Part shown: piece by piece, positions 1,779-64,000 of the stretch
Layout: each line of letters opens with the position of its first letter
Position numbering within the stretch: position 1 is the first letter of the stretch
Origin: Nonlabens sp.
GTDB taxonomy: Bacteria > Bacteroidota > Bacteroidia > Flavobacteriales > Flavobacteriaceae
Reading direction: 5' to 3'
DNA length: 64,000 nt
Assembly: GCA_020630715.1 (NCBI GenBank)
Contig: JAHDIQ010000004.1
Location: 74,522-138,521, forward strand
The notes under the pieces: model-generated
The model's database searches: none
What the model was told of the DNA's origin: nothing
What the model saw: the letters and a program-made list of their open reading frames with translations, nothing else
Position numbers and translations under genes: made by a program

Positions 1779-4700
1779 ATGGAAACCATCATCACACTTG
1801 CCTTAAAAAGCGTCGCCGTATTAGCAATATTTGTTCTAGTCTATCATTTCTTATTACGTAGGCTTACCTTTTTTCACACTAATAGAGCCTTTCTTTTACT
1901 AGGAATTATCGCTAGTGTTACATTCCCATTTATAGAAATAACCCAAACAGTTTATATAGAACGTCCTGTAGAAAACATCGTGATTTCACAACCATTAATG
2001 ACGCCTATGGCAATGGTTTTAGAATCACAACCACAAGTAGAACCTTTTGACTACGCACAGTTATTGATGTATTTATATCTAGCCGTAGTGCTTTTTTTTA
2101 TTGGTAAAATGGTTGTAGAATTAAGCTCCTTATTTAGGCTGATCAGATCTGGAGCGATAGAGAAAAAAGATGGGTTTGTAATGGTTACGCTTTCGCGAAA
2201 GCTAACTCCATTTAGCTTCTTTAAGTACATCTGTTATAGTGCTCACGATAAGAATAATGCAGATTTACCACTCATCATAGATCACGAGAAAGTACATGCT
2301 CGCGAGTGGCATAGTATCGATTTATTGATCAGTCATTTATATCGTGCGGTGTTTTGGATCAATCCGCTGGCGTGGTTATTAAAACGTCAAATAGGAGAGA
2401 ACCTCGAGTTTATTGCAGATGCGCAGGCAAAATCACAACATAACGAGTCTGTAAATTATGAGCGTGCTCTTTTGAGTAGCGCCGCGAGTCACATGCAACC
2501 AGCACTAGCAAATAATTTTTTCACACCATTTATAAAAGAACGTATCGCAATGTTACAAAAAGAAGCCAGCGCCACATGGAATGCCTATAAATATGCGTTG
2601 ATCTTACCAGTCATGGTATTGTTTATTTACAGTTTTAATGTGGTAGAAGAGGTGGAGTTTGTGGATGTACCAGCGGAAGATCAGAAGCTAGAAGAAAATC
2701 AAAATCAAACTGAACATCAAGTTGATCCATTGATTTCTGATTCAACTCTAAGTAAAAATTCTGACACAGAAGAATCGCAAAAGGAAGTAACCAAAACTAG
2801 TTCTTATGGTGTTTATGACATTACTACTGCTACAACGGGTAGTGATTTGGTAAAGTACGCATCTGAAATAAACTCTAGAAGATCCTATCAAATCCAATTT
2901 AACAATATAAAGGAAAATAATGGGAAGTTGTCACAATTTGAAGTTTGGACAGAATTTGATGGTGAAACTTCAAATCATAAAATGACTTTAGAATTGGGCG
3001 AGAATGATTTGTACCTACTTAGAGATTTAGATGATAAAATGCTACTTAATAATGATGCCTCTACAGAAACTTTTTATTTTACAAGTAAAGGCGTAATTCT
3101 AGAAAAAGAAGACTGGACTTATGGCGATATGAAAACGATAAATACGTTACCACAAGAACGTTTTAATCTAGAAAACAACTCATTTACAAATGGTCGCGTA
3201 ACTTTTAAAATTGTAAAAACAACTACAGATAAGAGTCTCAAAGAATTTAAGCAACAGTTAAAAAACGCCTATGATGTTGATTTTAAATGGAGTGGACTTA
3301 AACGCAAAAACGGCGTGATTACAGCTATTAAAATACAGCTAGATGATAATAATGGGTCTGTGATGAAAAAGTCACAAAAAAACAGCATTGGCATCGATGA
3401 CCTTTGTATACATGGTGATCTATCAGAATCACAAAATAGTTGGAGTTTAAATAACTGTGATAAGGATTCTTATGCAGCAATAGGTTTTATGACAAATGAT
3501 TTCAGACTAGATAGTATTCGTGATATCATAGATATTCAAAATTTAAACATGGATACGATTCATCTAAATATGATGACTGGTTTTAAAGAAATAAATATTG
3601 ATAGCATCATCAATCAATCTATAACAACCATTCACGATATAAATACAGATAGTCTAATACAATCACATGATTTTTCTATTGAGAATATAGAATCCTTAAA
3701 AAATGATACCTTAAATAAAAGTACCCTTATAATTTTAAATAATGTAGATCCATCGAGAGAAACTTTATATTCTAATAATGCTCAAAAATTTCAACCATTA
3801 CTTATAGTTAATGGAGTGATTTCAAATTTTAAAATTGAAGATTTTAGCGATTCTGAAATGATTGAAAGCGTGACAGTGCTAAAAGGAGATGAAGCGACAG
3901 CACTTTATGGTGAAAAAGGAAATAATGGTGTTGTTATGATCGTAACAAAAGCTGGAACTACGTTAGATAAAGAAGCTGTCTTAAAAGAGCGTGAAGAAGT
4001 TCTTCAAGAACGACGCGACGCAATAGAAGAATTAAGAGAGGTGAAAAGTGAAAAACGCAAGGCTATTTTAGAGGAACGACGTGCTACGTTGGAAAAATTG
4101 CGTGACTCAAAAATTAAAGAACGTGAGGCATTGATAGAACAAAGATCACATGTAAAAGAACAGCGCCGTGCTCAATTAGAGCAGCGCCGTAATCTTACCA
4201 TACAACAATCTAATCAAGTATTATCCGATAAAGAGCTTGCTAATCGTGTAGGAGATAAAGGTATACATATTGAAAAATTTGATCGTGAATCCATTTTAAA
4301 AGCAATAGGTGATGAAGAAAAAGGCTATCTGTATTATGATAACGCTACTTATTTCTTTGTGGTTGAAAATGATAAACTCAACGTTTTTGATCGTTGGGGA
4401 AATTATATTGATCTTAATGACAAAGCTATTTTTTATAATTCTATAGGCGATGAAAAAGCGTACGTAATCGTGAACGGAGAAAAATTAGTATTTGAAAAAG
4501 ATGAAATAAGACGTGGTAATAGGATGTATATCAATAGAGGTGATGGGAAATTCCTAGAGAAGATCGCTGGGCAACCTACTAAATATTATGAAGGAATAGA
4601 TATGTCTACGGCATCAGATTATGTAAAACAAAAGTCAACGACATCAATTAATAAACTATCAAAGTTTGCTGACAGCTTATTAGACTCTAGAGCTAAAACA

Positions 4701-4976
4701 TCGATAGCAGCAACGGTTAAAGAAACTAACGAAGCTATTTTTGCAACAAACGATATGTCAAAAGAAGGCTTTGTGAAATTAGAACAGCAATTAGAGAAAG
4801 CAGGACATAGCTTTAAATTAGTCACACATTTTATGAAATCTGGTACATTGAAAAGTTTAAAATTTAAAATCAATAACTCTACTAGTGCGATGGAAGCTAA
4901 TAAAGGCGTAAAATCTGTTCGTATCAGTTTTAGGGATGGAACTGATACTCCTATCGTAATAATGGAATCCAACTAA
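1779..4976 (+). CDS. BlaR1-like M56 membrane metallopeptidase with TonB-plug-like and coiled-coil regions
   Basis: The start is taken at ATG 1779, 1 bp after the blaI stop, giving about 1065 residues. The N-terminal third is an M56 domain with several membrane helices and a zinc HExxH motif (HEKVH, residues 169-173). Another membrane helix lies near residues 269-288. The long exported part has no penicillin-binding sensor domain. Instead it has a TonB-receptor-plug-like segment near residues 675-720 ('VTVLKGDEATALYGEKG'), then a strongly charged Arg/Glu helix rich in 'ERR' repeats (about 731-808), then an unassigned C-terminal region. It is expected to sense an envelope signal and relieve BlaI repression. 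One copy of the palindrome family encodes LSRK near residue 138. Confidence 0.88.
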   Translation: METIITLALKSVAVLAIFVLVYHFLLRRLTFFHTNRAFLLLGIIASVTFPFIEITQTVYIERPVENIVISQPLMTPMAMVLESQPQVEPFDYAQLLMYLYLAVVLFFIGKMVVELSSLFRLIRSGAIEKKDGFVMVTLSRKLTPFSFFKYICYSAHDKNNADLPLIIDHEKVHAREWHSIDLLISHLYRAVFWINPLAWLLKRQIGENLEFIADAQAKSQHNESVNYERALLSSAASHMQPALANNFFTPFIKERIAMLQKEASATWNAYKYALILPVMVLFIYSFNVVEEVEFVDVPAEDQKLEENQNQTEHQVDPLISDSTLSKNSDTEESQKEVTKTSSYGVYDITTATTGSDLVKYASEINSRRSYQIQFNNIKENNGKLSQFEVWTEFDGETSNHKMTLELGENDLYLLRDLDDKMLLNNDASTETFYFTSKGVILEKEDWTYGDMKTINTLPQERFNLENNSFTNGRVTFKIVKTTTDKSLKEFKQQLKNAYDVDFKWSGLKRKNGVITAIKIQLDDNNGSVMKKSQKNSIGIDDLCIHGDLSESQNSWSLNNCDKDSYAAIGFMTNDFRLDSIRDIIDIQNLNMDTIHLNMMTGFKEINIDSIINQSITTIHDINTDSLIQSHDFSIENIESLKNDTLNKSTLIILNNVDPSRETLYSNNAQKFQPLLIVNGVISNFKIEDFSDSEMIESVTVLKGDEATALYGEKGNNGVVMIVTKAGTTLDKEAVLKEREEVLQERRDAIEELREVKSEKRKAILEERRATLEKLRDSKIKEREALIEQRSHVKEQRRAQLEQRRNLTIQQSNQVLSDKELANRVGDKGIHIEKFDRESILKAIGDEEKGYLYYDNATYFFVVENDKLNVFDRWGNYIDLNDKAIFYNSIGDEKAYVIVNGEKLVFEKDEIRRGNRMYINRGDGKFLEKIAGQPTKYYEGIDMSTASDYVKQKSTTSINKLSKFADSLLDSRAKTSIAATVKETNEAIFATNDMSKEGFVKLEQQLEKAGHSFKLVTHFMKSGTLKSLKFKINNSTSAMEANKGVKSVRISFRDGTDTPIVIMESN
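2189..2202. repeat. Interspersed palindrome, copy 1
   Basis: Exact GCTTTCGCGAAAGC inside the M56 peptidase gene. It is read as Leu-Ser-Arg-Lys, just before the conserved 'PFSFFKYI' stretch. Confidence 0.95.
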
Positions 4977-4997
4977 GTTTTTATTTGAGTGAATCCT

Positions 4998-5035
4998 AAA
5001 AGCACTTGTTCTTTATGTAGAACAGGTGCTTTTTA
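4998..5035 (+). terminator. Rho-independent terminator after the M56 gene
   Basis: AAAAGCACTTGTTCT (4998-5012) pairs with AGAACAGGTGCTTTT (5019-5033) with one G-T wobble and a 6-nt loop, and ends in a T run. It lies 21 bp after the M56 stop codon. Confidence 0.9.
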
Positions 5036-6960: not shown

Positions 6961-6982
6961 TTCCGCTTTCGCGAAAGCGGAA
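6961..6982. repeat. Interspersed palindrome, copy 2 (22-bp perfect palindrome)
   Basis: The exact core GCTTTCGCGAAAGC (6965-6978) is extended on both sides with TTCC/GGAA to a perfect 22-bp palindrome. It lies between the divergent RDD and padR genes and is not followed by a T run. Confidence 0.95.
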
Positions 6983-11967: not shown

Positions 11968-11989
11968 TTACGCTTTCGCGAAAGCGTAA
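11968..11989. repeat. Interspersed palindrome, copy 3 (22-bp perfect palindrome)
   Basis: The exact core GCTTTCGCGAAAGC (11972-11985) is extended to a perfect 22-bp palindrome with TTAC/GTAA flanks. It lies in the intergenic region before the symporter and is followed by a C/A-rich stretch (AACAACCACAACA). Confidence 0.95.
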
Positions 11990-16946: not shown

Positions 16947-17778
16947 GTTATCGGTTCAAGAAATGATCGATAAAATCCAGCGTGAAGAACATTTTAACGC
17001 TGTGACAACTGATTATTCTTTTTCTTTAAAAATAGAAGATTACGTTCCTTATGTATGTGCTGCCGTACATGATGGTCACCAGTTTGCGCTTGATTTATGG
17101 GAGAATTGTTTGCATACAGCTCACGATCGCTGGTATGAGGAAGATCCTTGCACAGGCATTATGATTTCTGATATGCCTATAACATTGATCGCTCATGATT
17201 CTAGATTTGAATATGACTTAAATCGCGATCCTGAAAATGCCGTTTATGATACTGCATGGGGAAAAGAGTTGTGGAGAACTCCGCTTTCGCGAAAGCGTAA
17301 ACAACAATCACTGCAAAAACACGAGAACTTTTACAAAGTAGTTAAGGCACTAGTACATAAACTAGAAGAGCTCTACGTATCTACCGTTTTTTATGATATG
17401 CATTCCTATAACTGGAAACGCTGGGATCGTAAGGTGCCTGTTTTTAATATAGGAACTACAAATGTGGATGAGGAAACATTTAGAGTAGCGATCATGCAAT
17501 GGCAAGACGTCTTAAATGATTTGTCATTACCTATTGAACAAGAGGTAGAATGCACCATAAATGATGTTTTTAAAGGCAATGGTTATTTCCTAAAGTTTGT
17601 TACTGCACATTCTAAAAACACACTAGTTCTCGCTACAGAGATATCTAAGATTTACTGCGATGAAGAAACAGGAATTATCTACAGTGATGTGGTAGAGGCA
17701 GTACGTAGTCAGTTGAGTTATTACATAAAAGCACATGCGCATCGTTTTTACGATAGACATCACCAAATAGAACTTTAA
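16939..17778 (+). CDS. N-formylglutamate amidohydrolase-family protein
   Basis: 279 residues. Metal and substrate motifs of the FGase family are present: 'AAVHDGHQF' (His44, His47), 'HDSRFEYDLNR' with the E-x-DLNR signature, and 'FYDMHSYNWKR' with the D-x-HS motif. The family belongs to a zinc-dependent amidohydrolase/carboxypeptidase fold, and characterised members release formate from N-formylglutamate. No histidine-degradation (hut) genes are near, so the substrate may differ. It overlaps the ATP-grasp gene by 8 bp and is 3 bp from the QEGLA metallopeptidase. A palindrome copy (17283-17296) encodes LSRK just after the 'AWGKELWRTP' stretch. Confidence 0.85.
   Translation: MLKLSVQEMIDKIQREEHFNAVTTDYSFSLKIEDYVPYVCAAVHDGHQFALDLWENCLHTAHDRWYEEDPCTGIMISDMPITLIAHDSRFEYDLNRDPENAVYDTAWGKELWRTPLSRKRKQQSLQKHENFYKVVKALVHKLEELYVSTVFYDMHSYNWKRWDRKVPVFNIGTTNVDEETFRVAIMQWQDVLNDLSLPIEQEVECTINDVFKGNGYFLKFVTAHSKNTLVLATEISKIYCDEETGIIYSDVVEAVRSQLSYYIKAHAHRFYDRHHQIEL
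17283..17296. repeat. Interspersed palindrome, copy 4
   Basis: Exact GCTTTCGCGAAAGC in the FGase-like gene, read as Leu-Ser-Arg-Lys inside a basic, glutamine-rich segment that looks like a surface loop. Confidence 0.95.
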
Positions 17779-48340: not shown

Positions 48341-49577
48341 TAATGTTAGATCTTATATTGCGGAATTTAAAAAACGTGATGGTTTATATATAGCAATTTC
48401 GGCATTAATTGTTAAGGTTATAGGTTTAATTATTTCTGTTTTTGTGATACGAATGATTGATAAAGCAGAATTTGGTTATATCGCTTTTGCACTATCTATC
48501 ATTGCTGTCTTGAGCGCTTTTTCGGGTTTAGGGATGAATTGGTCTCTATTAAGATATGGGGCGTTAGAGAAGACTATTTCTGGCAAGAAAAATATATACT
48601 TTAAAAGTATTAAAATAGGGGCAGTAGTGACCCTAATACTGATACTACTCGTTAGTTTGTGCTCTGTATTTTTACCAAAACATCTTGAAGACTCAAGTCT
48701 TTATTTAATAATATTATCCTTAGGCTTATTAGGGAACTTTCTTTTAGATTCACTCAGGTCATTTTATCGCATAGTTAAGAAAAATAGAACATATGCCAAT
48801 ATCAACGTAGCATTTATATTCGTACTCATAGTTACATCCGTAGTGGGTATTTATTTTTATGATGGGTATGGATATGTTTTTGCTTTAGTCTTGACACCAT
48901 TATTAGTGTTTTTTATTTTTCAAAAAGGGCTTAACTTTAAACATAGCAATAATTTGTTACCTGATGGTTTTGTAAAGTATGGTATCAATACTTCATTAGG
49001 GATGGTGTCCAACCAGGCGACTATTATTATGGGACCATTGCTTTTGGGATTGTATGGTGCGATACCAGAAGAGGTTGCGATGTTTAAAGTAACCACAATA
49101 ATCCCCTTTAACTTAATGATTGTTCCAGGTGTCATCTTCACCACAGATTTTGTACACATTTCAGAGAGCTATAAAGATTCAGGAGTGTTAATAAAATATT
49201 ATAAAGATTATGTAAAAACTTTATTTAGCATTTCTATTATTCCAGTCATATTACTTTTTATATTTTCAGAGGATTTGATTTTTTATCTCTTCGGTGCTGA
49301 ATATGTCTTAATTAATACTGAATTCAGGCTATTATTATTATCCATTTATGTTGCTCTTTTTTTAAGAATTCCTGCAGGTAATATTTTATCTGCCGTTGGA
49401 AAGGCTAGTTGGAATGTATATAATACTTATTTCTGGCTTGTAATTTACCTTCCACTATCTTTACTATTATATAATTCTTTTGGAATAATGGGGTTTGCAA
49501 TTTCGCTAGGTGTGGTATTTGTGTTTTCTGGTTTCGTAGGGGTTTTTATGTTGACTAGATATTTAAAAACGATATAA
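48333..49577 (+). CDS. Wzx-type oligosaccharide flippase
   Basis: 414 residues, almost entirely membrane helices (about 12), with the opening 'ALIVKVIGLIISVFVIRMID' and the 'AEFGYIAFALSIIAVLSAFS' segment typical of polysaccharide-biosynthesis (PST/MOP) flippases. It would move the undecaprenyl-linked repeat unit across the inner membrane. It overlaps the preceding glycosyltransferase gene by 8 bp and is 1 bp from the asparagine synthetase-like gene. Confidence 0.87.
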   Translation: MISNVRSYIAEFKKRDGLYIAISALIVKVIGLIISVFVIRMIDKAEFGYIAFALSIIAVLSAFSGLGMNWSLLRYGALEKTISGKKNIYFKSIKIGAVVTLILILLVSLCSVFLPKHLEDSSLYLIILSLGLLGNFLLDSLRSFYRIVKKNRTYANINVAFIFVLIVTSVVGIYFYDGYGYVFALVLTPLLVFFIFQKGLNFKHSNNLLPDGFVKYGINTSLGMVSNQATIIMGPLLLGLYGAIPEEVAMFKVTTIIPFNLMIVPGVIFTTDFVHISESYKDSGVLIKYYKDYVKTLFSISIIPVILLFIFSEDLIFYLFGAEYVLINTEFRLLLLSIYVALFLRIPAGNILSAVGKASWNVYNTYFWLVIYLPLSLLLYNSFGIMGFAISLGVVFVFSGFVGVFMLTRYLKTI

Positions 49578-49578
49578 T

Positions 49579-51294
49579 ATGAACGGATTTTCTGTAATTA
49601 TTGGTAACAATGAAAAATGTGATTTGAACAACGTAGAATTTAATTATTTTTCAATTCCAAATCATATTTACACGAAAAAAAGACATCACTTAGTTATTTA
49701 TTCTAATGGCAAATTCGAGAAAGATCAAATATTGATTCAAACAAATGACCATACTTTAGTATTATCTGGAGTTGTATTAAATCTTAACTTATTTACAACT
49801 TATGCTAATTGGGGAGAGTACTTTTTAAAACAATTTTTAAAATTTGAAGGAGAGTTTTTACGTAAATTAAGAGGTTCTTTTGTTGGATTTCTATTTTATA
49901 AAAAAACGAATTGCATTAAAATCTTCAATGATCATTTAGGAACAAAGCAATTATTTCTCTATCGTTGCGATAAATATATCATTTCTAGTACCTGCATGTA
50001 TGATGTTTATTCATTTAAAAATAAACTAAAAATCCCATATAATTTCTCATCTAGTGCATTTACAAATCTGCTATCTTTCGGGTATACTTTGAATAATCAA
50101 ACGATATGTTCATCGATTTCTAGTATTGTCCCTGGTTCTGTTGCTAAAATTTCGAATGAAAATTTATCTTTTAGCAGATATTATGACTTAAGGGAAGTTA
50201 TTTCTAAAACAGTGAACAAGCCAGATCTAGATGAGATTGATGCTTCTTTTAGAGTCGCTGTTGAATTACAATTTGATAAAGATATTGATTATGGATATAA
50301 ACATTTGGTAGGTTTAAGTGGTGGTCTAGACTCTAGAATGACTTCTATTGTTGCTCATGAATTAGGGTATGTTGATCAGTTGAACTTCACGTTTTCACAA
50401 TCCAATTATCTAGATGAGACTATAGCAAAAAAAATAGCTTCAGATTATAAACATAACTGGTTATTCAAATCTTTAGATAACGGTCTTTTTCTTAAAAACA
50501 TAGACGAGGTAACCAGATTCACAGGTGGGAACGTCTTATATTATGGTTTAGCTCATGGAGATAGCTTTTATAAATTACTTAATTTTAATGATTATGGGAT
50601 TTTGCATACTGGACAATTGGGAGATATTATTTTAGGAAGCATACTTAAATCTTTAGATTCAAAGCACGTTAAAAGACAACACGGCGCATATTCAGATCGT
50701 TTATTAAACAAGGATGATCTAGATGTTGTTTATGAAAGTTTAGAGGATTTTGAAATTGAACTTTTTTATAGAAGAGGTGTCTATGGTGCAAATAGCGGTT
50801 TAATTGCGATTCAACAATATACAGAAACCATGTCACCTTTTTACGATGTAGATTTTATAGAGTTATGTTTATCCATACCTATTAAGGAGCGGATTAACCA
50901 CAGTCTATATAAGAAATGGATTCTCCAAAAATATCCTTTCGCAGCTAAATATGTTTGGGAAAAAACAAATTTAGCAATTTCAAAAAAACAAATAGAAATT
51001 AGTTTTAAAGGAACTACTGTTCCTTTAAATAAGTTACCTAAATTGCTAATTAATAAATTATTTAATCTTAAATTAGGATATTCTGAAAGTATGAACCCAA
51101 TGCAATATTGGTACGACAGCAATATTGAGTTGAGAAAATATTTAGATAAATATTTTGAAGAGTATATACATCTCATTGAGGATGATGATCTTTACAGAAA
51201 CACTTTTTCCTTATATAAACAAGGAAATGCGATAGAAAAAAATCAAGTTCTTAGTGTGTTATCAGCGTTAAAACTTTTTTACTCACAATGTTAA
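49579..51294 (+). CDS. Asparagine synthetase-like amidotransferase lacking the glutaminase cysteine
   Basis: 571 residues. An N-terminal Ntn-hydrolase-like region (about residues 1-200, 'RGSFVGFLFYKKTNCIKIFN' and 'DHLGTKQLFLYR') is followed by an asparagine-synthase ATP domain with the PP-loop 'GLSGGLDSRMTS' (Ser247-Arg253). The catalytic Cys2 of normal AsnB is absent: the protein starts Met-Asn-Gly-Phe. In polysaccharide loci such proteins can convert uronic acids to uronamides (WbpS/WbpG-like roles). That would fit the uronic acids made here, but it is inference. Confidence 0.8.
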   Translation: MNGFSVIIGNNEKCDLNNVEFNYFSIPNHIYTKKRHHLVIYSNGKFEKDQILIQTNDHTLVLSGVVLNLNLFTTYANWGEYFLKQFLKFEGEFLRKLRGSFVGFLFYKKTNCIKIFNDHLGTKQLFLYRCDKYIISSTCMYDVYSFKNKLKIPYNFSSSAFTNLLSFGYTLNNQTICSSISSIVPGSVAKISNENLSFSRYYDLREVISKTVNKPDLDEIDASFRVAVELQFDKDIDYGYKHLVGLSGGLDSRMTSIVAHELGYVDQLNFTFSQSNYLDETIAKKIASDYKHNWLFKSLDNGLFLKNIDEVTRFTGGNVLYYGLAHGDSFYKLLNFNDYGILHTGQLGDIILGSILKSLDSKHVKRQHGAYSDRLLNKDDLDVVYESLEDFEIELFYRRGVYGANSGLIAIQQYTETMSPFYDVDFIELCLSIPIKERINHSLYKKWILQKYPFAAKYVWEKTNLAISKKQIEISFKGTTVPLNKLPKLLINKLFNLKLGYSESMNPMQYWYDSNIELRKYLDKYFEEYIHLIEDDDLYRNTFSLYKQGNAIEKNQVLSVLSALKLFYSQC

Positions 51295-51342
51295 TTAATT
51301 ATATTTAAGTTACGACCAAGTAATATTAAAGATGTATCTAGT

Positions 51343-52422
51343 ATGAATGTTTTTATTGTGGATAATACCGTGAATGTTAATGTATTACAATCTCAATTAC
51401 TAACACCATTAGCAATGATTGAAGATCAAGCTAATATTAAGATATTGTTACCGAGGCAAATTAAAACAAGTGTTGATCAGTTTTTACTTTTGAAAGATTC
51501 ATTCGTTTTTTATACTGACACAAAAAATAAGTTCCACTTATTGTATAAATATGGAACTAAGGCAGATCATTTATACACACGATCAGTCAAAGAATTTATA
51601 ACTATTTTAATTCTTAAAAACTTCTTTTTTAAGAACACTAAATTGGTTTATGATTTCAGAGGGTTAGCTTATGCTGAATACCAACTAAAAAATGAATTTA
51701 ATTTTATTAATAGTGCAAAATCCAGTATATTGAAATTCATGGAACGCTTAGCATTTCAGAGGGCAGATATTGTTTTGACAGTTTCAAATAGTTTTAAGAA
51801 TTTTCTATTAGCGGAATTTAAAAAAGGGACGATTCATAAGGTTATACCATGTTGTATATCGAAAATAGATTATTTAAAGGAGGATTTAATTATGAATAAG
51901 AAGCCAGTAAGTTTTGTATATCTAGGGTCATTATCTAAATGGCAGAAGTTTGAAGAGGTTATCACTCTTTATAAGAAAATCTCAAATCATATTCCTGAAG
52001 CAAAGTTAACAGTCGTAACAAACGAAATAGAAAAGGCAGAATTTATTCTACAAAATAATAACATAACTGCAAGAATTACTTCTTTAAAACACAAAGAAAT
52101 CAATGCTGAATTGAGTAAACACACGTTCGGTTTTATTTTAAGGGATAATATTTTATTAAATAATGTAGCTTCTCCAATTAAGTTTCTTGAATATCTTAGA
52201 GCTGGTGTCATTCCTATTTATTCCAAAGGTATAGGTGATTACAGTGACCTATGCGATTCTTCCAATGTAGGAATATTATATGATTCAAATGATTTACAAT
52301 CCGTTATAAATAAAATTAAATCCAAAATAGTCTATAATGGTGATGTTGATAAATTACTTAAAATTGCTTCTAACTATACATGGGATAAGTATTATAAAAA
52401 TTATTTATTTCAAAATCCCTAA
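51343..52422 (+). CDS. Glycosyltransferase (GT4-like)
   Basis: 359 residues, GT-B fold. 'KLVYDFRGLAYAEYQLKNEF' and 'RADIVLTVSNSFKNFLLAEF' are typical of the acceptor domain; 'SFVYLGSLSKWQKFEEVITL' begins the nucleotide-sugar domain and 'SPIKFLEYLRAGVIPIYSKG' is the usual GT4 donor-site motif. The donor sugar is not known. The gene stands alone between the asparagine synthetase-like gene and the polymerase candidate, with small gaps. Confidence 0.82.
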   Translation: MNVFIVDNTVNVNVLQSQLLTPLAMIEDQANIKILLPRQIKTSVDQFLLLKDSFVFYTDTKNKFHLLYKYGTKADHLYTRSVKEFITILILKNFFFKNTKLVYDFRGLAYAEYQLKNEFNFINSAKSSILKFMERLAFQRADIVLTVSNSFKNFLLAEFKKGTIHKVIPCCISKIDYLKEDLIMNKKPVSFVYLGSLSKWQKFEEVITLYKKISNHIPEAKLTVVTNEIEKAEFILQNNNITARITSLKHKEINAELSKHTFGFILRDNILLNNVASPIKFLEYLRAGVIPIYSKGIGDYSDLCDSSNVGILYDSNDLQSVINKIKSKIVYNGDVDKLLKIASNYTWDKYYKNYLFQNP

Positions 52423-52472
52423 GTATACGAAATTATTCCCATTATATAACTAATCTGTTTAATGACGTCTTA

Positions 52473-53600
52473 GTGATAACCTATTATTTTTTAACCATAC
52501 TACTAGTCTTAATATTCTGGCTCAACAAGAGAGCATGTTCAATTGCTTTACTATTTGGAGTTGCTATTATATTAACTCAGTTACCTAGTACAGACGCGGA
52601 TTATGATCGCTATAAGACCTCTTATGATAGTGCTAAGTTCACAAATCAATTCCCCTTTTTTGTCACTAACTCAGAATTAGATGCCGAACCTTTCTATAAA
52701 TGGTATACTTCCTTTATATCTGTTATAAGTAATTTAGATTTTTCTATTTTTTTGTCCATAAATTTTGTTTTATGCCTTTCACTGTTGTTTGTTGTGTTTA
52801 ACAAACTAAATTTAAAATATTATTATTCTTTTTTGATAATGCAATTACCAGTGATAATCCCCACCATTTATTATTTCTCTCCAAGGTCATCTCTATCCTA
52901 TGTATTAGTCGTAGTGTCTTTTTTTTTAATTGTTAGGAACTATTTTTGGACTGGAGTCGCGGTCTTGATATTTGCTATTTCTACACACAGTCAGTTCCTA
53001 TTGATAGGAGCATTAATAATACTTTCATATTTTGTTATTAATAGGCTATATACTACTAGTTCAAAAAATATATTAATATATAAATACATTATTATAAGTG
53101 CTTTAGGATTAATTTTTGTACTGTTCTTCGTTGATATTTTTTTAGATATTATTCTCAATATCCTCAGCTTTTTACCAAGCGCAGACCTTGCAACTAGCAA
53201 AACACATTATTTAATTAATGAAAGAAAAGGTTTTAGAATCACATCATTTCTATCGATAGTAGTTTATCCTATTTTATCCTATAAGTTTTCAGTTAAAACA
53301 CACCAAAATAATTATTTACCAGTCTTATTTACATCGCTTGAAAAAGAAAGGTTTTTCTCTTTAATGCTTTTCGCTTGTATGATGTATGGTTTATCCATTA
53401 ATGTTGTTTATTTCGACAATCCTCATGTTGCAGGAAGATTAAGTAGATTCTCCGACTATACTGGAATGGCTTTGTTAATTCCGCTAGTATCTAATACTAT
53501 TTGGAGAAATAACACTTTGAATGTTCTAATAATCATTTTTGTTATTATTGCTCCATTTATTTTTCCTACTTTGTATCACAAAGTAACATGGGGATTTTGA
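52473..53600 (+). CDS. EpsG-like polysaccharide polymerase (Wzy candidate)
   Basis: 375 residues from a GTG start, with about ten membrane helices. The periplasmic loop 'DADYDRYKTSYDSAKFTNQF' and 'AEPFYKWYTSFIS' resemble EpsG-family proteins, which are Wzy-type polymerases or accessory proteins. In a locus with a Wzx flippase, a polymerase is expected and this is the only candidate. It overlaps the next glycosyltransferase gene by 13 bp. Confidence 0.75.
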   Translation: MITYYFLTILLVLIFWLNKRACSIALLFGVAIILTQLPSTDADYDRYKTSYDSAKFTNQFPFFVTNSELDAEPFYKWYTSFISVISNLDFSIFLSINFVLCLSLLFVVFNKLNLKYYYSFLIMQLPVIIPTIYYFSPRSSLSYVLVVVSFFLIVRNYFWTGVAVLIFAISTHSQFLLIGALIILSYFVINRLYTTSSKNILIYKYIIISALGLIFVLFFVDIFLDIILNILSFLPSADLATSKTHYLINERKGFRITSFLSIVVYPILSYKFSVKTHQNNYLPVLFTSLEKERFFSLMLFACMMYGLSINVVYFDNPHVAGRLSRFSDYTGMALLIPLVSNTIWRNNTLNVLIIIFVIIAPFIFPTLYHKVTWGF

Positions 53601-54571
53601 AAAAGGTAGATATACTTGTAATTGGAAAGAAACCACCACCTATAGGAGGTGTTACAATTCATGTTCAAAGATTATTTCAAAAGCTAGAAGAAAAGAGTTT
53701 TAAATTTGAATTCCTTTCTGTAACTAAAAATTTATTTATCCTATTTGGTGCAACTAAAAGTACTATAATCACTCATATTCATAGTAGTAGTCCATATTAC
53801 AGATTACTAATAGTTTTAATCGCTAAAATATGTAATTCAAAAGTTATCGTCACTATCCATGGAGACTTAGGCAGGTTTAAATCTTCATTTAAAAATGATA
53901 TAGATAATTTAGCAGTTAAATGGTCTTACACACCTATACTATTAAACAAAGAAAGTCTTAAACTTGCTGTTAAACTGAATCATAGAAGTATTCTTTCTAG
54001 TGCTTTTATACCACCTAGCCGAATGGAAAGTTTGCCTAAAAAGTTAATAGATGATATCGAAAATCTTAAACATAATCATGAATTGTTATTTTCTACAAAT
54101 GCTTATGGGCGTACTTTTGATAAAAATCAAAATGAAATTTATGGGATAGAAATGCTAATTCCTATTTTTAGAAAACATATCAATTACGCTCTTATCATAT
54201 CAGATCCGTCAAGTGCCTATTTTGATTATTTTAAAGAGAATCATATTGAAATTCCAAACAACGTTTATTTAATCAATTATCAACATTCGTATTTTGAAAT
54301 TTTAAAGCAAGTTGATCTAAGTATAAGGAATACAAGTACTGATGGTGATCCATTATCAGTAAAAGAGTCATTATATTTAAAAACTCCCGTGATAGCAACA
54401 GATGTGATTTTAAGGCCAGATGGCTGTACTGTTTATAAGAGAGAACAACTAGGGAGTTCCTTTAATCAAATTATTTCTGATGCTATGAATAATTGTCAGA
54501 ACGCACTAATTGAAGATGGTTCGTTACTTCTTTTTGATGTTTACGATCAAATTTTAAATAACCATTTATGA
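53588..54571 (+). CDS. Glycosyltransferase
   Basis: 327 residues. The start 'ILVIGKKPPPIGGVTIHVQR' is the glycine-rich loop of GT4-type enzymes, and 'KVIVTIHGDLGRFK' and 'PLSVKESLYLKTPVIATDVI' fit the acceptor and donor domains. The protein is somewhat short. The sugar specificity is unknown. It overlaps the polymerase candidate (13 bp) and the lipoprotein gene (4 bp), so it is tightly coupled to both. Confidence 0.78.
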   Translation: MGILKKVDILVIGKKPPPIGGVTIHVQRLFQKLEEKSFKFEFLSVTKNLFILFGATKSTIITHIHSSSPYYRLLIVLIAKICNSKVIVTIHGDLGRFKSSFKNDIDNLAVKWSYTPILLNKESLKLAVKLNHRSILSSAFIPPSRMESLPKKLIDDIENLKHNHELLFSTNAYGRTFDKNQNEIYGIEMLIPIFRKHINYALIISDPSSAYFDYFKENHIEIPNNVYLINYQHSYFEILKQVDLSIRNTSTDGDPLSVKESLYLKTPVIATDVILRPDGCTVYKREQLGSSFNQIISDAMNNCQNALIEDGSLLLFDVYDQILNNHL

Positions 54572-56346
54572 TCATTTTAATTAAATTGGTTAAACCCTTT
54601 TTAACGTTATTTACTACACTACTATTATTTTTAGTTCTCCTTAACGCTTGTAGTACTATCAGTGTTAAAAGTATCGAGGTTAATAGGGTATCAACCTATT
54701 CTAAGAATCCTATTAAAATAACTGAAAACATCGATGTTTTAAAAACAGCCTATAATGATGGGAATTACGTTGCTAATTCCATAAAAGATTTGCTAATTGA
54801 ACAGGACACGCTAATAGTATTAAATAATGAAAAAGCACAGTTTTCATATTATCTAGAGAATATTACAGACAAGGAAATCGAGGTGTCAATAAATTCATCA
54901 GCAACAGCTATTGTAGTTTATCGATTATTACCAGTAAGTGATTGGTACTCTGAGGGAAATAATAGACCTTATATGGAATTCTATCCAGATGCTCTTTTTA
55001 GAATAAATCCTCTATTATTAGAGAATGGATTAAAGCTCAATCCTAAAGAAAGGATACAATTATTCATTGAAACAGAATTAAAAGGCACAGGTGTTCAAGA
55101 CGTCGACGTTCAGTTTAAGACAAATCAGGATCAATTAATAAATACAAGGATAACTGTAAATAAATTAAAGGTAGCAACACCTTCCAGCTCTTTTAATAGC
55201 ATTATTTTTAACCAGATCAATTTGCAGTCTGGATCAGGTGTTTTAGATACCTGGCAAGAAACCGGATTTACCCATTTACAGGTCAATTACATTCCTACGG
55301 TTATTTTTGATAAATATGGTAACCCGACTACAAATGAGATAAATCATAAGACCAGTAACTCAACTGGATTTAGAAACACAGCATATCCTTGGATTAGAAA
55401 AGGAGGAACCGTTCTACTTTTTTGGGAGCCTAGGTATCAAAAATTAGCACTTACAGCATCTGGTAATTATTTAAAACCTTTCACCACAGAATGGCTTAAC
55501 GCTTTTAAAAACTTAATACATATTATTAGGCAGGATTTGATTAAAAAATACTCTAGCACAACACATGATCAGATTGTACTATACCTTGCAGATGAGGTGA
55601 CTCGCTTGCGTAAAAAAGATGAATTAAATGGATATAAAAAGCTATCTACTTTTATAGAACGTGAAATACCGAACTTAAAAATATTGCTAACCTTTGGTTA
55701 TTATAGTGACAAATCTATTGTAGACTCCTTTGAAGGTATTGATATTTATGTGCCACATATTTTAATGCCAGATAAACGAGAAATTAAGGGTGTCTATATA
55801 TCACCACAATCTGTCTTTCAGTCTGCAAAGATTTTTAATAATGAGAAGTGGATGTATAGTATTGAAGCTGGTAAAAAAGCACCATTATATAAATTTCGCG
55901 CACTACCAGTTATTGCGGCTGCGCAAGGTTATAAAGGTTATAGTTGGTATTCATTTGCAGATCACGCTGGATCTACATGGTATGCAGCAGACGGCAAAAG
56001 ACTAGATTATTCCTTATATTATCATAGAGAACCTAAGAATCCTATTTATAACTACTGGAGTGATCGATTAGTAACACAGGATTATTTAACTCGTACATTG
56101 AGACTTAAGGCGATTAAAAAAGGTCTGGTTGATGCTAAAATTGTGCGCTGGCTTATAGAATCAAAGCATCATTTTAAAAAGGAAGATGTATCAATTATTA
56201 ATAACCTTTTAAAAAAATTACAAAATATTGACATTGAATCAAGATCAGAATCGTCTTTAAATGAATCTAGTGTTTATAATATGCCAGTTTCTTCAGAAAA
56301 ATTAAGACTTTTGTATTCAAGGTTGAAAACAGATTACAAACTATGA
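54568..56346 (+). CDS. Lipoprotein with a possible glycoside-hydrolase fold
   Basis: 592 residues. The signal ends in a lipobox ('LVLLNACST'), so the protein is lipid-anchored outside the inner membrane. An N-terminal beta-domain (to about residue 205) is followed by a region with TIM-barrel character: 'TWQETGFTHLQVNYIPTVIF', 'IVLYLADEVTRLRKK' (possible acid pair) and 'GYKGYSWYSFADHAGSTWYA'. That recalls GH123/DUF4091-type hydrolases, but I cannot assign a family with confidence. It overlaps both neighbours by 4 bp. It might trim or edit the polymer during export. Confidence 0.7.
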   Translation: MIILIKLVKPFLTLFTTLLLFLVLLNACSTISVKSIEVNRVSTYSKNPIKITENIDVLKTAYNDGNYVANSIKDLLIEQDTLIVLNNEKAQFSYYLENITDKEIEVSINSSATAIVVYRLLPVSDWYSEGNNRPYMEFYPDALFRINPLLLENGLKLNPKERIQLFIETELKGTGVQDVDVQFKTNQDQLINTRITVNKLKVATPSSSFNSIIFNQINLQSGSGVLDTWQETGFTHLQVNYIPTVIFDKYGNPTTNEINHKTSNSTGFRNTAYPWIRKGGTVLLFWEPRYQKLALTASGNYLKPFTTEWLNAFKNLIHIIRQDLIKKYSSTTHDQIVLYLADEVTRLRKKDELNGYKKLSTFIEREIPNLKILLTFGYYSDKSIVDSFEGIDIYVPHILMPDKREIKGVYISPQSVFQSAKIFNNEKWMYSIEAGKKAPLYKFRALPVIAAAQGYKGYSWYSFADHAGSTWYAADGKRLDYSLYYHREPKNPIYNYWSDRLVTQDYLTRTLRLKAIKKGLVDAKIVRWLIESKHHFKKEDVSIINNLLKKLQNIDIESRSESSLNESSVYNMPVSSEKLRLLYSRLKTDYKL

Positions 56347-58460
56347 AACAAATCATACAATCCTTTAAAACAGGAGAAACTATATTAGAGGAATTACCTG
56401 CACCACAAGTAAAACGTGGTCATGTTTTAATTCAAACTACAAAGTCACTGGTTTCTCTAGGGACAGAGCGTATGCTAGTTGAGTTTGGTAAATCTAATTT
56501 AATATCTAAGGCGCGACAGCAACCAGACAAAGTAAAGATGGTGCTGGATAAAATTAAAACAGATGGATTACTACCTACCTTAGAAACTGTTTTTAATAAA
56601 CTAGGAGAGCCACTACCATTAGGTTATTGTAATGTAGGTGTGGTAAAAGAAGTAGGAGAAGGCGTTTCAGAATTTAAAGTAGGTGATCGCGTAGCCTCAA
56701 ATGGTGGGCATGCAGAGTTTGTTTGTGTACCTAAAAACCTTGTTGCAGCAATTCCAGATAACGTAACAGATGAACAAGCTGCATTTACGGTTATAGGCAG
56801 TATAGGATTACAAGGCATACGGCTATGTGAACCTACAATAGGAGAAACTATTGTAGTAACAGGTCTAGGCTTAATAGGTCTAATCACTGCGCAAATGCTA
56901 AAAGCAAATGGCTGCAACGTAATAGGAATTGACTTTGACAACTCAAAATTAGAATTGGCAAAAAAATGGGGAATCACCACTGTTAATCCTGCTGAAGGAG
57001 AAGATCCTGTAAAAACGGTAATGCAGTTAACAAATGGAGTAGGAGCAGATGGTGTAATCATCACCGCTTCTACTAAATCTAATGATGTAATTTCTCAAGC
57101 AGCACAAATGTCTAGACAGCGCGGTCGTATCATTTTAGTAGGTGTTATAGGTCTAGACATCAGTCGTGCAGAGTTTTATCAAAAAGAGTTGACGTTCCAG
57201 GTATCTTGTTCTTATGGTCCAGGTAGATATGATGAGGATTATGAGAATCGTGGTCAGGATTATCCGCTACCATTTGTAAGATGGACTGAGAAACGCAACT
57301 TTGAAACTATTCTTAATTCCATATCAAAAGGGTTTATAGAAGTAGATCCTATGATCACAGAAGTGATAGAACTTAACGATTTTCAAAAAATATATGGCGA
57401 GATAGGTAGTTCTAAATCCATAGCATCTATCCTTAATTATAGCAATGCCACCTACAGCAACACCGTGAGTATTTCATCACATAAGGCAACGGCTGGTGAT
57501 AATGGAATAGCTATTGTAGGCGCTGGTAATTTTACTAAAATGACCATGTTGCCTGCTATGAAAGGCACTGATGCTAATTTACAATACATTATCAGCTCAG
57601 GCGGATTATCTGGAACAACGCTAGCTAAAAAATTTGGTATAGCAAATAGCACAACAGATTTTGATGAGGTGTTGAATGATGATCAGGTAAGTACTGTGAT
57701 GATTACCACCAGACATAATTTACATGCGCCTATGGTTATTAAATCTCTTAAAGCTGGGAAAAATGTATTTGTAGAAAAACCACTAGCATTAAATCATCAG
57801 GAACTCGATGAGATTATAAATGTTTATCAAAATGCTAAAGCAAGTCTAACGGTAGGTTTCAATCGTAGATTTTCTCCTCATGCTTTCAAGATGAAAGATG
57901 CTATAGGAAACGGAGATACGCCTATCAACGTTATTGCTACAATGAATGCAGGTGCTATCCCACCAGAGGTTTGGGTTCACGATCTTAAAGTAGGTGGTGG
58001 ACGCATTGTAGGTGAAGCTTGTCACTTTATTGATTTAATCTCCTTTTTTACAGGTAGTAAGGTCACTGCAGTTTGTATGAATGCCATGGGAATCAATCCA
58101 GAAGAGAATACAGATAACGCGAGTTTATTATTACGATTTGAAAATGGTTCTACTGGAGTTATAAATTACTTTGCAAATGGAAGTAAAGCGTATTCTAAAG
58201 AGCGTGTTGAGATTTACAGTCAGGAGCGCACTATCGTAATGGATAACTGGAGAAAAACAAAAGCATACGGCTTTAAAGGTTTTAAAGGCTTGAAAACTAA
58301 AATGGATAAAGGTCATAAGGCACAATTCCAGAAAATGGTAGACCATGTTAATAACGGTGGTGATTCATTAATTGACATGGATTCATTAGTAAATACCACT
58401 AGAGCATCATTTGCAGCTATTGAAAGTTTGAAAACAGGTTCTTGGGTTCATGTGGACTAA
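56343..58460 (+). CDS. Bi-domain oxidoreductase (zinc alcohol dehydrogenase + Gfo/Idh/MocA)
   Basis: 705 residues in two fused enzymes. Residues 1-360 are a medium-chain dehydrogenase/reductase ('SLGTERMLVEFGKSNLI', 'PLGYCNVGVVKEVGEGVSEF', 'VVTGLGLIGLITAQML'). Residues 375-700 are a Gfo/Idh/MocA NAD(P) oxidoreductase ('AIVGAGNFTKMTMLPAMKG', 'FVEKPLALNHQELDE', 'GGGRIVGEACHFIDLISFFT'). Such fusions are common in polysaccharide loci next to heparinase-like genes; the substrate is probably a nucleotide-sugar or lipid-linked sugar. It overlaps the lipoprotein gene by 4 bp and the next gene by 11 bp. Confidence 0.9.
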   Translation: MKQIIQSFKTGETILEELPAPQVKRGHVLIQTTKSLVSLGTERMLVEFGKSNLISKARQQPDKVKMVLDKIKTDGLLPTLETVFNKLGEPLPLGYCNVGVVKEVGEGVSEFKVGDRVASNGGHAEFVCVPKNLVAAIPDNVTDEQAAFTVIGSIGLQGIRLCEPTIGETIVVTGLGLIGLITAQMLKANGCNVIGIDFDNSKLELAKKWGITTVNPAEGEDPVKTVMQLTNGVGADGVIITASTKSNDVISQAAQMSRQRGRIILVGVIGLDISRAEFYQKELTFQVSCSYGPGRYDEDYENRGQDYPLPFVRWTEKRNFETILNSISKGFIEVDPMITEVIELNDFQKIYGEIGSSKSIASILNYSNATYSNTVSISSHKATAGDNGIAIVGAGNFTKMTMLPAMKGTDANLQYIISSGGLSGTTLAKKFGIANSTTDFDEVLNDDQVSTVMITTRHNLHAPMVIKSLKAGKNVFVEKPLALNHQELDEIINVYQNAKASLTVGFNRRFSPHAFKMKDAIGNGDTPINVIATMNAGAIPPEVWVHDLKVGGGRIVGEACHFIDLISFFTGSKVTAVCMNAMGINPEENTDNASLLLRFENGSTGVINYFANGSKAYSKERVEIYSQERTIVMDNWRKTKAYGFKGFKGLKTKMDKGHKAQFQKMVDHVNNGGDSLIDMDSLVNTTRASFAAIESLKTGSWVHVD

Positions 58461-60324
58461 AATCAGCTTAGTAATAAATTTTTTGAGAAATATGGGCTTG
58501 CGTTATGTAGGCTTTCGGGTATGGCATTTGTTTCAAGTGAAAACAGGTTTATTCGTTAGAAAGTTTCCTGTAAATCCACCTCATAAAGAATTTATAAGCT
58601 TAACAGCATGGCGAGATGCTTCTATTCCTTTTTTAATTGATTCTAGAGAAAATATAGATTTAGAAAAAAAACTTAGTGATGATTTAGAATCTCGCTTTCG
58701 CGAAAGCAAAAAAAACAACATCACTTTCTTTAATAGCCAGCAATTTCAATTAAATACGGATCAGCAGTGGAGCTTAAACCCAAGTAATGGATACGTATAT
58801 GATACAAATAAACACTGGTCTCAAATAGCCGATTTATCTAAGGAAGCTGGTGATATTAAATTTGTTTGGGAAAAAGCAAGATTTTCTTATTTATATGACA
58901 TTTTAAGATACGATTATCATAGTGACAATGATCAATCTCGTTATGTATTCAATGAAATTGAGGACTTCATAGATAAAAATCCAATAAATCTAGGACCACA
59001 ATACAAATGTAGTCAGGAGATAAGCTTAAGAATATTAAACTGGACTTATGCGCTATATTATTATAAAAATAGCCACAACCTCACCGATAAGTTATTTGTA
59101 AAAATTATAAATGCCATCTACTGGCAATTAAAACACGTGCGCGATAATATCCACTTTTCTCGCATCGCAGTACGTAATAATCATGCGATTACAGAGACAC
59201 TTACACTCTATCTCTCAGGATTACTTTTTCCTTTTATCCCAGAAACTAAAAACTGGAGTAAATCTGGACTACAATGGTTTGAAAAAGAAGTGGACTATCA
59301 AATTTATGAGGATGGTACATTCTTGCAATACTCAATGAATTATCATCGTGTGGTAGTTCAATTACTCACATGGGGAATACGATTGAATGATTTGAATGGA
59401 TTACGCTTTCGCCAAAGCGTTTATCTAAAAGCTCAAAGATCTCTTGACTTTTTAGACGCCTGTATAGATGAAAAGTCAGGAATATTGCCTAATTACGGTA
59501 GTAATGATGGTGCACTATTTTTTAAGTTTACAGATCTGGATTATAGGGATTACACCAGTCAATTAGATGATTTAAGGATGGCGTTAAAAGGTGAAGCGGT
59601 GAAAGCTTCTGAAAGTTTTGCATGGTACGGATTGAGTAACCCTAATTATGTAAAACGCATTCAACCAGAGATCAATTCTTTTAAAAATGGAGGTTATTAC
59701 ATTATAAATGAAGAAAATTCTAAAACCTTTATACGCTGTGGAGCTTATAAAGATCGACCAGCTCAAGCAGATAATTTACATCTAGACATATGGGTAGATG
59801 GTAAGAATTACCTTTGGGATTGTGGTAGTTATAAATACAATACAGAAGATAAGTATCTAGAACATTTTATGGGTAGTTCTGGTCATAACACAGTAACTAT
59901 TAATCATAAAGATCAAATGTTAAAAGGTGGTCGCTTTATATGGTACTACTGGGTGAAAAAAGCAAAAGCTTCCTTAGAAAAAAAGCATGATTTTGTATTT
60001 AAGGGTGAAATAGAAGCCTTTAAACAGTTAGGTGGTGCAACTCATAAAAGAAATGTTATTAAGGATATAGGTCAAACTAAATGGCTGGTTCAGGATCAGG
60101 TGACTAAAAATGCAGAACATTTAATGACGCAACACTGGCATGTAAATCCTAACTTACTAGAAAAAGTTACTTTTGTAGCAACGGATGCAAATGATGAAAT
60201 TATCAAACCTGAGAAAGAAATTAAATGGCATTCCAGTTATTATGGAGTAAAACAGGATTCTATAGGACTATCATTTTCATCAAGAACCAATAAGATTACT
60301 ACACAAATCACCATAAACGCCTAA
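58450..60324 (+). CDS. Heparinase II/III-like (uronate lyase family) protein
   Basis: 624 residues. The N-terminal alpha/alpha toroid ('IHFSRIAVRNNHAITETLTL', 'LQYSMNYHRVVVQLLTWGIR') and the C-terminal heparinase II/III beta-domain ('ADNLHLDIWVDGKNYLWDCG', 'YLEHFMGSSGHNTVTINHKD') are recognisable. No signal peptide is seen, although family members act on exported polymers. It overlaps the upstream oxidoreductase by 11 bp. Because the locus makes uronic-acid precursors, a lyase for its own polymer is plausible. One intact and one altered palindrome fall inside it. Confidence 0.85.
   Translation: MWTKISLVINFLRNMGLRYVGFRVWHLFQVKTGLFVRKFPVNPPHKEFISLTAWRDASIPFLIDSRENIDLEKKLSDDLESRFRESKKNNITFFNSQQFQLNTDQQWSLNPSNGYVYDTNKHWSQIADLSKEAGDIKFVWEKARFSYLYDILRYDYHSDNDQSRYVFNEIEDFIDKNPINLGPQYKCSQEISLRILNWTYALYYYKNSHNLTDKLFVKIINAIYWQLKHVRDNIHFSRIAVRNNHAITETLTLYLSGLLFPFIPETKNWSKSGLQWFEKEVDYQIYEDGTFLQYSMNYHRVVVQLLTWGIRLNDLNGLRFRQSVYLKAQRSLDFLDACIDEKSGILPNYGSNDGALFFKFTDLDYRDYTSQLDDLRMALKGEAVKASESFAWYGLSNPNYVKRIQPEINSFKNGGYYIINEENSKTFIRCGAYKDRPAQADNLHLDIWVDGKNYLWDCGSYKYNTEDKYLEHFMGSSGHNTVTINHKDQMLKGGRFIWYYWVKKAKASLEKKHDFVFKGEIEAFKQLGGATHKRNVIKDIGQTKWLVQDQVTKNAEHLMTQHWHVNPNLLEKVTFVATDANDEIIKPEKEIKWHSSYYGVKQDSIGLSFSSRTNKITTQITINA
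58694..58707. repeat. Interspersed palindrome, copy 11
   Basis: Exact GCTTTCGCGAAAGC in the heparinase-like gene, read as Arg-Phe-Arg-Glu-Ser in a polar linker and followed by A/C-rich sequence (AAAAAAAACAACA). Confidence 0.95.
59405..59418. repeat. Altered palindrome copy (one mismatch)
   Basis: GCTTTCGCCAAAGC, with the central G of the right arm changed to C. It is read as Arg-Phe-Arg-Gln-Ser, where other copies give RFRES. It looks like a decaying copy, 700 bp from an intact one in the same gene. Confidence 0.8.
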
Positions 60325-63312: not shown

Positions 63313-63314
63313 CC

Positions 63315-63322
63315 TATCTTTG
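63315..63322 (+). promoter_or_regulatory. -7 promoter element before the aminotransferase gene
   Basis: TATCTTTG, a TAnnTTTG match, 18 bp before the ATG at 63341. It points to an internal promoter in the polysaccharide locus. Confidence 0.55.
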
Positions 63323-63340
63323 TAACCTTAATATTCCTTT

Positions 63341-64000
63341 ATGTCGCAAGATAAAATATGGCTATCTTCTCCACACATGGGTGGTGCAGAGCGTGACTTT
63401 GTAAAACAAGCATTTGATACAAACTGGGTAGCACCTTTAGGACCTAATGTAAACGGTTTCGAAAAAGATTTAGAAGATTATCAAGGCGAGAATGTACATG
63501 TAGCAGCATTGTCTAGCGGTACAGCAGCTATACATCTTGCACTCGTGCAGGCTGGTGTGACAGCTGGTGATGAGGTTATTTGTCAAAGCTTTACCTTTTG
63601 TGGTACTACAAACCCAGTATTATATCTAGGTGCCACACCAGTGATGGTAGACAGTGAGCCAGATACGTGGAATATGTGTCCACAAGCTTTGAAAAACGCC
63701 ATAGAAGATCGTATCGCTAAAGGCAAAAAGCCTAAGGCTATTCTAGCAGTACATCTGTATGGAATGCCCTATAAGGTTGATGAGATTCACGCTTTCGCGA
63801 AAGCGTACTCCATACCAGTCATAGAAGATAGTGCAGAGGCTTTAGGAAGTAGCTTTAAAGGACGTAAATGTGGAACTTTTGGTGACTACGGAATCTTAAG
63901 TTTTAATGGGAATAAGATTATTACGACCAGCGGTGGTGGTGCCATGGTATGCCCTACAAAAGAAGTAAAAGAGAAAACCGTTTTTCTAGCAACTCAAGCA
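63341..64000 (+). CDS. DegT/DnrJ/EryC1/StrS aminotransferase, partial (PglE-like)
   Basis: The first 220 residues are present; the gene runs off the right edge. The N-terminus 'KIWLSSPHMGGAERDFVKQA' and 'TNWVAPLGPNVNGFEKDLED' are typical of PglE/LegC-type sugar aminotransferases. The PLP region includes 'LSSGTAAIHLAL', 'EDSAEALGSSFKGRKCGTFG' and the Schiff-base lysine in 'SFNGNKIITTSGGGAM' (Lys192). It would make UDP-4-amino-4,6-dideoxy-GlcNAc from the 4-keto sugar, feeding the PglD-like acetyltransferase. The matching 4,6-dehydratase is not in the window. A palindrome copy encodes AFAKA at about residues 151-155. Confidence 0.9.
   Translation, partial: MSQDKIWLSSPHMGGAERDFVKQAFDTNWVAPLGPNVNGFEKDLEDYQGENVHVAALSSGTAAIHLALVQAGVTAGDEVICQSFTFCGTTNPVLYLGATPVMVDSEPDTWNMCPQALKNAIEDRIAKGKKPKAILAVHLYGMPYKVDEIHAFAKAYSIPVIEDSAEALGSSFKGRKCGTFGDYGILSFNGNKIITTSGGGAMVCPTKEVKEKTVFLATQA
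63791..63804. repeat. Interspersed palindrome, copy 12
   Basis: Exact GCTTTCGCGAAAGC in the aminotransferase gene, read as Ala-Phe-Ala-Lys-Ala inside a helix that carries the usual 'I...A' pattern of the family. Confidence 0.95.

Follow-up and report, generated by a model that had tools for sequence, protein, structure and literature searches.

A strict 16-bp palindrome in Nonlabens and two other flavobacterial genera: a probable chromosome-wide tag

Introduction

A 64,000-nt stretch of the chromosome of Nonlabens sp. (contig JAHDIQ010000004.1; from here: the window) contains twelve exact copies of the 14-bp palindrome GCTTTCGCGAAAGC, distributed over genes and spacers. This raises the question of what maintains such a long and perfect dyad at so many positions. 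The genomic pattern described here makes it probable that the palindrome is a previously undescribed chromosome-wide tag of Nonlabens and two other flavobacterial genera, consisting of a strict 16-bp dyad flanked by G-poor arms, occurring about every 5 kb and read by a dimeric protein. Two roles come into question: a chromosome anchor of a new type, or an uptake signal that operates without type IV pili and would be the first in Bacteroidota.

In the literature searched (preprints outside the scope), the 14-mer string was not found, and TTTCGCGAAA appeared only in papers that are apparently unrelated judging by their titles. Among the matches listed for palindromes and uptake sequences in Nonlabens or Dokdonia, nothing addressed the motif. 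As far as found in the literature, no uptake word is established for Bacteroidota.

Results

The genome that holds the window (G000; 2,978,537 bases in 17 contigs) contains 609 copies of the 14-mer, while a reversed-pattern control yielded none. With 458 kb of G000 as training sequence, Markov models predicted 0.0006–0.011 copies per genome at orders 1–4 and 0.0037 copies at order 5 with the sites masked; without masking, the order-5 model expects 2.6 copies because the sites themselves train it. A RecG search gave N. ulvanivorans, strain BBFL7, N. tegetincola and an uncultured Nonlabens as the nearest matches, in line with the genus Nonlabens. All 23 Nonlabens genomes of the genus are rich in the motif, with 288–857 copies each and the lowest number in a genome that is 78% complete. 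Perfect copies outnumber those with a single mismatch by 361 to 59 over 1.69 Mb of DNA from Nonlabens and from G227, a motif-rich genome of another genus. The first-pass annotation had proposed a palindrome kept genome-wide and had named a count close to composition, or a longer transposon around the copies, as arguments to the contrary. Neither applies, because the palindrome is real, genome-wide and genus-wide, and no longer transposon was seen around its copies.

Within the window, all twelve exact copies are present where they had been reported, and ten of them extend to the 16-mer, the exceptions being those at 2189 and 58694. The altered copy reported at 59405 has one mismatch, and a second altered copy was added at 47098. 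Dinucleotide shuffles gave a mean of 0.18 matches with up to two mismatches compared with 14 observed. The copies are not confined to gene ends, as had been noted before: nine are within open frames, of which the one at 6953 has an uncertain start, and the other three are intergenic. None is followed by a T run, which upholds their reading as non-terminators. The copies, listed without strand, and the largest gap between them are:

2189–2202: exact copy of GCTTTCGCGAAAGC inside an M56-peptidase-like gene, read as LSRK, without the 16-mer extension
6965–6978: exact copy at the beginning of a short frame, read as SAFAKA, start codon uncertain
11972–11985: exact copy between two genes
17283–17296: exact copy inside an N-formylglutamate amidohydrolase-like gene, read as LSRKR
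21320–21333: exact copy inside the frame 20977–21741, read as RFRES
25446–25459: exact copy inside a minus-strand M1-peptidase gene, read as RFRES
26599–26612: a further exact copy in this M1-peptidase gene, close to the N-terminus, read as AFAKA
31659–31672: exact copy between divergent genes
35319–35332: exact copy inside a PP-loop-family gene, read as RFRES
43546–43559: exact copy between co-directional genes that are 55 bp apart
43560–58693, plus strand: 15-kb stretch without an exact copy, the largest site gap in the window; at 48–56 kb a low-GC (28–32%) surface-polysaccharide gene cluster
47098–47111: two-mismatch, still palindromic copy GCTTTTGCAAAAGC, with a perfect motif at the same place in genomes G205 and G201
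58694–58707: exact copy inside a heparinase-II/III-like gene, read as RFRES, without the 16-mer extension
59405–59418: one-mismatch copy
63791–63804: exact copy inside the open frame 63341–64000, aminotransferase-like by eye, read as AFAKA

The low-GC polysaccharide cluster is probably imported DNA. Among 29 loci compared, spanning alignments existed for two of the twelve window sites (four alignments, 67–69% identity), and neither site was conserved. 10-mers that are perhaps tandem repeats also recur in the window, for example TCGCTACTCG seven times and TCAAGAGTCA six times.

The 14-bp core is strict over its whole length and extends to 16 bp in 448 of the 609 copies in G000. It is flanked by symmetric arms. 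Over about 18 bp the right arm is poor in G and rich in A/C, a bias that in Nonlabens continues more weakly up to about 36 bp. Hence, the A/C bias lies on the 3′ side of each strand and the 5′ arm is G/T-rich on both strands. The same bias extends over about 23 bp in G227 and is weak in G190, a genome from the second additional genus. The flanks of the copies have composition in common, not sequence. The information content amounts to 29.7 bits for the core and 6–7 bits for each arm, whereas 12.3 bits are needed to find 609 sites.

An extended hairpin or cruciform was rejected because the arms hardly covary within a site: for the 24 of 40 positions listed, z ranged from −2.0 to 1.9 at 23 and reached 3.6 only at position 2. 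The half-site GCGAAAGC was found 21 times in G000 versus 3.6 expected, and 4 times versus 3.4 once all copies with up to three mismatches had been masked; the largest half-site excess after masking was that of CGAAAGCGT, with 4 versus 0.6. Sequences of the GCGAAAGC type are known to form stable mini-hairpins; this reading was dropped with half-sites near chance. As the masked half-sites are near chance and the arms barely covary, the whole duplex dyad is most likely the target.

The first-pass annotation had likened the palindrome to the highly iterated palindrome 1 (HIP1) of cyanobacteria. This likeness holds in kind but not in detail, the uptake signals of Pasteurellaceae being the nearer statistical match. 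In a HIP1-like scenario, a methyltransferase or a biased mismatch-repair system would create and keep the palindrome. The presence of a genome-wide palindrome in two to three lineages is compatible with it, as is the inner TCGCGA, which outside the sites is 19–31% above expectation in all four sets. Furthermore, the portion of the source used here relates cyanobacterial HIP-type repeats to methyltransferases (PMC4390886). However, the TCGCGA excess is small, a 14–16 bp core with symmetric arms of about 18–23 bp exceeds such recognition, and even spacing is not predicted. We consider this origin improbable; among the causes that had been listed, methylation or repair of the HIP1 type thus fits poorly, which leaves DNA uptake or a DNA-binding protein that organises the chromosome.

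The mean spacing in Nonlabens is 4.2–5.8 kb, with one copy per 4.9 kb (about 0.2 per kb) in G000. Coefficients of variation were 0.46 and 0.57 for two contigs of G000, 0.55 for G199, 0.51 for G207 and 0.44–0.66 for G227, compared with 0.97–0.98 for random placement where this value was given. In G205, 20 spread stretches of 20 kb contained 88 sites, with 3–7 sites in each of 18; the outliers were a 33%-GC stretch with no site and a 48%-GC stretch with one. No origin-to-terminus trend was seen in this one genome: the region around the parS pair (0.56 Mb) and the region facing it had similar numbers of sites. Sites of the matS/Ter or origin-domain type were rejected because the motif is spread along G205 and not restricted to one chromosomal domain. 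Low-GC bins of 5 kb were poorer in sites in all four genomes binned, although a GC-rich motif might show the same anyway.

When genes were defined simply as long open frames, 127 of 205 sites (62%) were within genes and 78 were not fully in a gene, versus 10.6% for random positions, a 3.6-fold enrichment outside genes. The genic sites occur in all three frames (64, 27 and 36); therefore, it is the DNA and not a peptide that is kept. Spacer densities were 0.66 per kb between convergent, 0.93 between divergent and 1.22 between co-directional genes, and a terminator function was rejected since convergent spacers are the poorest class.

Conservation was assessed between G199 and G207, which are about 95% identical in most blocks. 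Of 47 sites in G199, three were unaligned and 42 of the 44 aligned ones were identical in G207; conversely, 42 of 45 aligned sites of G207 were identical in G199, with two more unaligned. Conditioned on presence in G199, core substitutions numbered 3 in 630 compared with about 0.05 beyond 40 bp, i.e. change was about ten times slower. At 78–88% identity, conserved sites were 7/7 in both directions for G208 and G209, 7/8 for G199 in G212 (reverse 7/7) and 5/5 for G201 in G206 (reverse 5/7). At about 70% identity few sites can be aligned, a bias towards the conserved ones. Between G227 and the Nonlabens DNA compared, only four places aligned across a masked site, one of them being identical.

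Insertion of a small mobile or repetitive extragenic palindromic (REP)-like element would account for the high copy number, the preference for spacers and the copies on blocks in other genera (see below). The mode of change points elsewhere: among 38 orthologous comparisons with a missing or altered site, 17 retain a one- or two-letter variant in place and 15 show no net gap, although some represent the same place in several pairs and the motif itself may steer the alignment in spacers. One spacer (G205 in G202) is shorter by 16, with the gap partly in the core, and is indistinguishable from an empty site. Together with flanks that are alike in composition and not in sequence, and no clean empty site apart from this ambiguous spacer, these results led us to reject REP, bacterial interspersed mosaic elements or mobile insertion, which we judge very unlikely. 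Five sites differ between G199 and G207, three by substitution and two through interruption by another repeat. The latter, of the type CCTGCCTGCCGGCAGGCAGG, sits in the middle of the palindrome at two G199 sites that are intact in G207 (L082 at ~16316, L083 at ~19527).

The evidence so far also bears on a dimeric intracellular DNA-binding protein that would bind each dyad and anchor, bridge or insulate the nucleoid about every 5 kb, with selection on chromosome organisation keeping the sites. The strict dyad needed in full with half-sites near chance, the hardly covarying arms, the even spacing, the lack of origin-to-terminus dependence with 3–7 sites in 18 of the 20 G205 stretches and a strong constraint limited to the core all suit such a protein. 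On the other side, the consensus is far stricter than 12.3 bits require and no reader was found. G000 and G010 have one ParB_N each, and canonical parS is present exactly twice, about 1.9 kb apart, in each of G000, G199, G205, G227, G190, G078, G113 and G032 (reversed parS control: one match in G199, one in G113). With a single ParB_N each and parS retained in 8/8 genomes, a ParB or Noc-like paralogue is unlikely and was rejected as the reader. Overall, the nucleoid protein is a doubtful explanation, albeit our second choice. In G000, one copy of the motif lies within parB (L394:2274-2287), ahead of the C-terminal domain and read as TLSRKRNT.

The 14-mer occurred at all in 44 of 199 genomes of the family, exceeding 17 copies only in G000, G010 (578) and G190 (408). 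The 16-mer occurred in 48 of 397 family genomes, with more than 13 copies only in four Nonlabens genomes (423–579), G190 (153) and G227 (630). Thus two other genera of the family are motif-rich, and the remaining sampled genomes have at most 19 copies. Among 395 genomes from the order, 17 had any copy, three of them outside the family with one copy each. In a quick RecG tree with midpoint root, G227, which may be a Dokdonia, and G190 grouped with Leeuwenhoekiella (support 95) and were separate from the Nonlabens clade. In a set of 80 named RecG neighbourhoods, the four from Nonlabens had 1–5 copies and the other 76 (3.4–22 kb each) had none. A search of these 76 for analogous words yielded A/T-dominated palindromic 10-mers repeated 3–4 times; a few repeated 12-mers are also present.

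In six low-copy genomes examined, the copies were mostly clustered: 16/16 within 78 kb in G076, 6/6 within 70 kb in G329, 12/17 on one contig in G051, 5/7 within 10 kb in G415 and 18/19 on two contigs in G307; in G144, the exception, nine copies were spread over six contigs. One block, by eye a TolC/RND-type operon with motif copies at distances of 2446 and 933 bp, is common to several genera. Between such blocks, at 76–78% identity, five recipients retained an intact site at 13 of 17 aligned places (G111 gave no alignment, G012 aligned over 169 bases only). From this integrity between diverged blocks, these sequences probably reside in motif-rich hosts for the greater part of the time; the block itself may carry a reader for the motif. 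The 16 copies in G076 lie on an island of about 80 kb (G076:C3:20001-120000; L404, L401, L405-L407) with genes for a heavy-metal P-type ATPase, an MksE-like protein that by gene order appears to be Wadjet-type, a Zot/A32-type ATPase, a methylase and a serine recombinase near a gene resembling ftsZ by eye.

The Nonlabens phages P12024S and P12024L, close relatives without an annotated integrase and presumably lytic, have no copy in 35.7 kb each. Among the matches listed for viral contigs, 17 of 85 scored sites were above 0 for the arm signature, several of them from the same contigs. The contigs L148, L190, L166 and L152 have a motif site with arm signature in common; L148 is probably temperate because it encodes an integrase and a tape-measure protein. 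Absence from the two phages, one site per 4.9 kb and a G/T-rich 5′ arm on both strands would also fit a Chi-like recombination hotspot that protects and recombines own DNA after breaks. Chi is read on one strand and in one orientation, and half-sites alone are near chance here for GCGAAAGC, though less so for CGAAAGCGT. We regard this explanation as even less probable than a HIP1-like origin.

Discussion

We tentatively favour the palindrome as a tag of the DNA-uptake-signal type, spread by biased uptake, without regarding this as established; to our knowledge, it would be the first such candidate in Bacteroidota. In naturally competent cells of Nonlabens and of the two other genera, a surface receptor would recognise the 16-bp dyad, with the G-poor arms as an aid, and let in DNA carrying the site. 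Fragments with a perfect site would be taken up and recombined most often, so that perfect sites would replace decayed ones and new sites would spread into stretches lacking one. Such biased uptake could produce the over-strong consensus, the even spacing, the conservation at fixed places and the absence from phages and recent imports. Consensus information beyond the 12.3 bits needed is as expected of a sequence spread by drive. From the genomic pattern observed, we infer competence, a receptor, and uptake instead of an intracellular protein as the force.

The ranking of an uptake-type tag before the nucleoid protein follows from its likeness to uptake signals in most tested traits, together with reports on Riemerella. 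According to the parts of the sources considered, transformation of Riemerella, a genus of the same order, involves ComEC, ComF, DprA and RecA together with unfamiliar envelope proteins, a gene set unlike pilus machinery (PMC8459023), and R. columbina prefers its own DNA, the frequent words given being only A/T-rich and up to 10 bp (PMC7965970). ComEC was present in 34/34 genomes tested.

Several observations weigh against the uptake tag. ComEC does not discriminate, as it is also present in all 23 motif-poor genomes tested, and ATPases of type IV pili or type II secretion systems (PF00437) passed the cut-off in 2/11 motif-rich and 3/23 motif-poor genomes. The strict dyad with both halves needed is unlike the asymmetric known uptake signals. 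In G190 the arms are weak and the spacing is not significantly even (coefficient of variation 0.78, as low in 13.7% of random sets). Competence of Nonlabens was not found among the literature matches listed for Flavobacteriaceae. The outer-membrane and surface genes of Riemerella were not seen beside comEC in G000, G227 and G190, where the scan covered the flanking genes except for those upstream in G190 and some others, and the rest of the genomes was not searched; the genes found there with comEC are surE, lpxB, NlpC/P60, POT transporters and a DPP-IV-like peptidase.

If the uptake tag is true, it would bear on own-DNA preference in Bacteroidota and give a handle on the receptor. If a chromosome anchor is true, about 600 mapped sites at even intervals would be available for a nucleoid protein. 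Either reading offers a route to the reader protein, and the motif may help to distinguish recent imports in these genomes from DNA that has resided there for long.

Among known systems, Chi of E. coli has a similar spacing, and the absence of the motif from the two Nonlabens phages is a further point in common; unlike Chi, the motif is a dyad without orientation dependence, with the half-site near chance. With parS and the Noc-binding site it shares a palindrome with TTTC..GAAA halves; its centre differs, canonical parS coexists with two copies per genome, and a ParB_N paralogue was not seen in G000 or G010. As with cyanobacterial HIP1 (GCGATCGC), a short palindrome is repeated through the genes and spacers of a whole lineage, whereas the Nonlabens core is much longer than this octamer or other short GC-rich palindromes and has symmetric arms and even spacing.

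In contrast to the uptake signal sequences (USS) of Pasteurellaceae and the DNA uptake sequences (DUS) of Neisseriaceae, the Nonlabens motif is a perfect 14–16 bp dyad and not an asymmetric word, has a density of about 0.2 per kb and occurs in genomes of which 9/11 motif-rich ones have the PF00437 ATPase below the cut-off. The sources, in the parts drawn on, describe known uptake signals that are not palindromes; for Pasteurellaceae USS they describe even spacing, perfect copies above singly mismatched ones, origin by substitution and a core with weaker flanks, and for H. influenzae 65% of USS in reading frames with an excess in non-coding DNA (PMC1939737, PMC1626085). Compared with USS and DUS as described there, the Nonlabens palindrome is likewise abundant, evenly spaced and lineage-specific, has a strict core with weaker flanks and perfect copies above single mismatches, is mostly genic with an excess in spacers, and arises by substitution.

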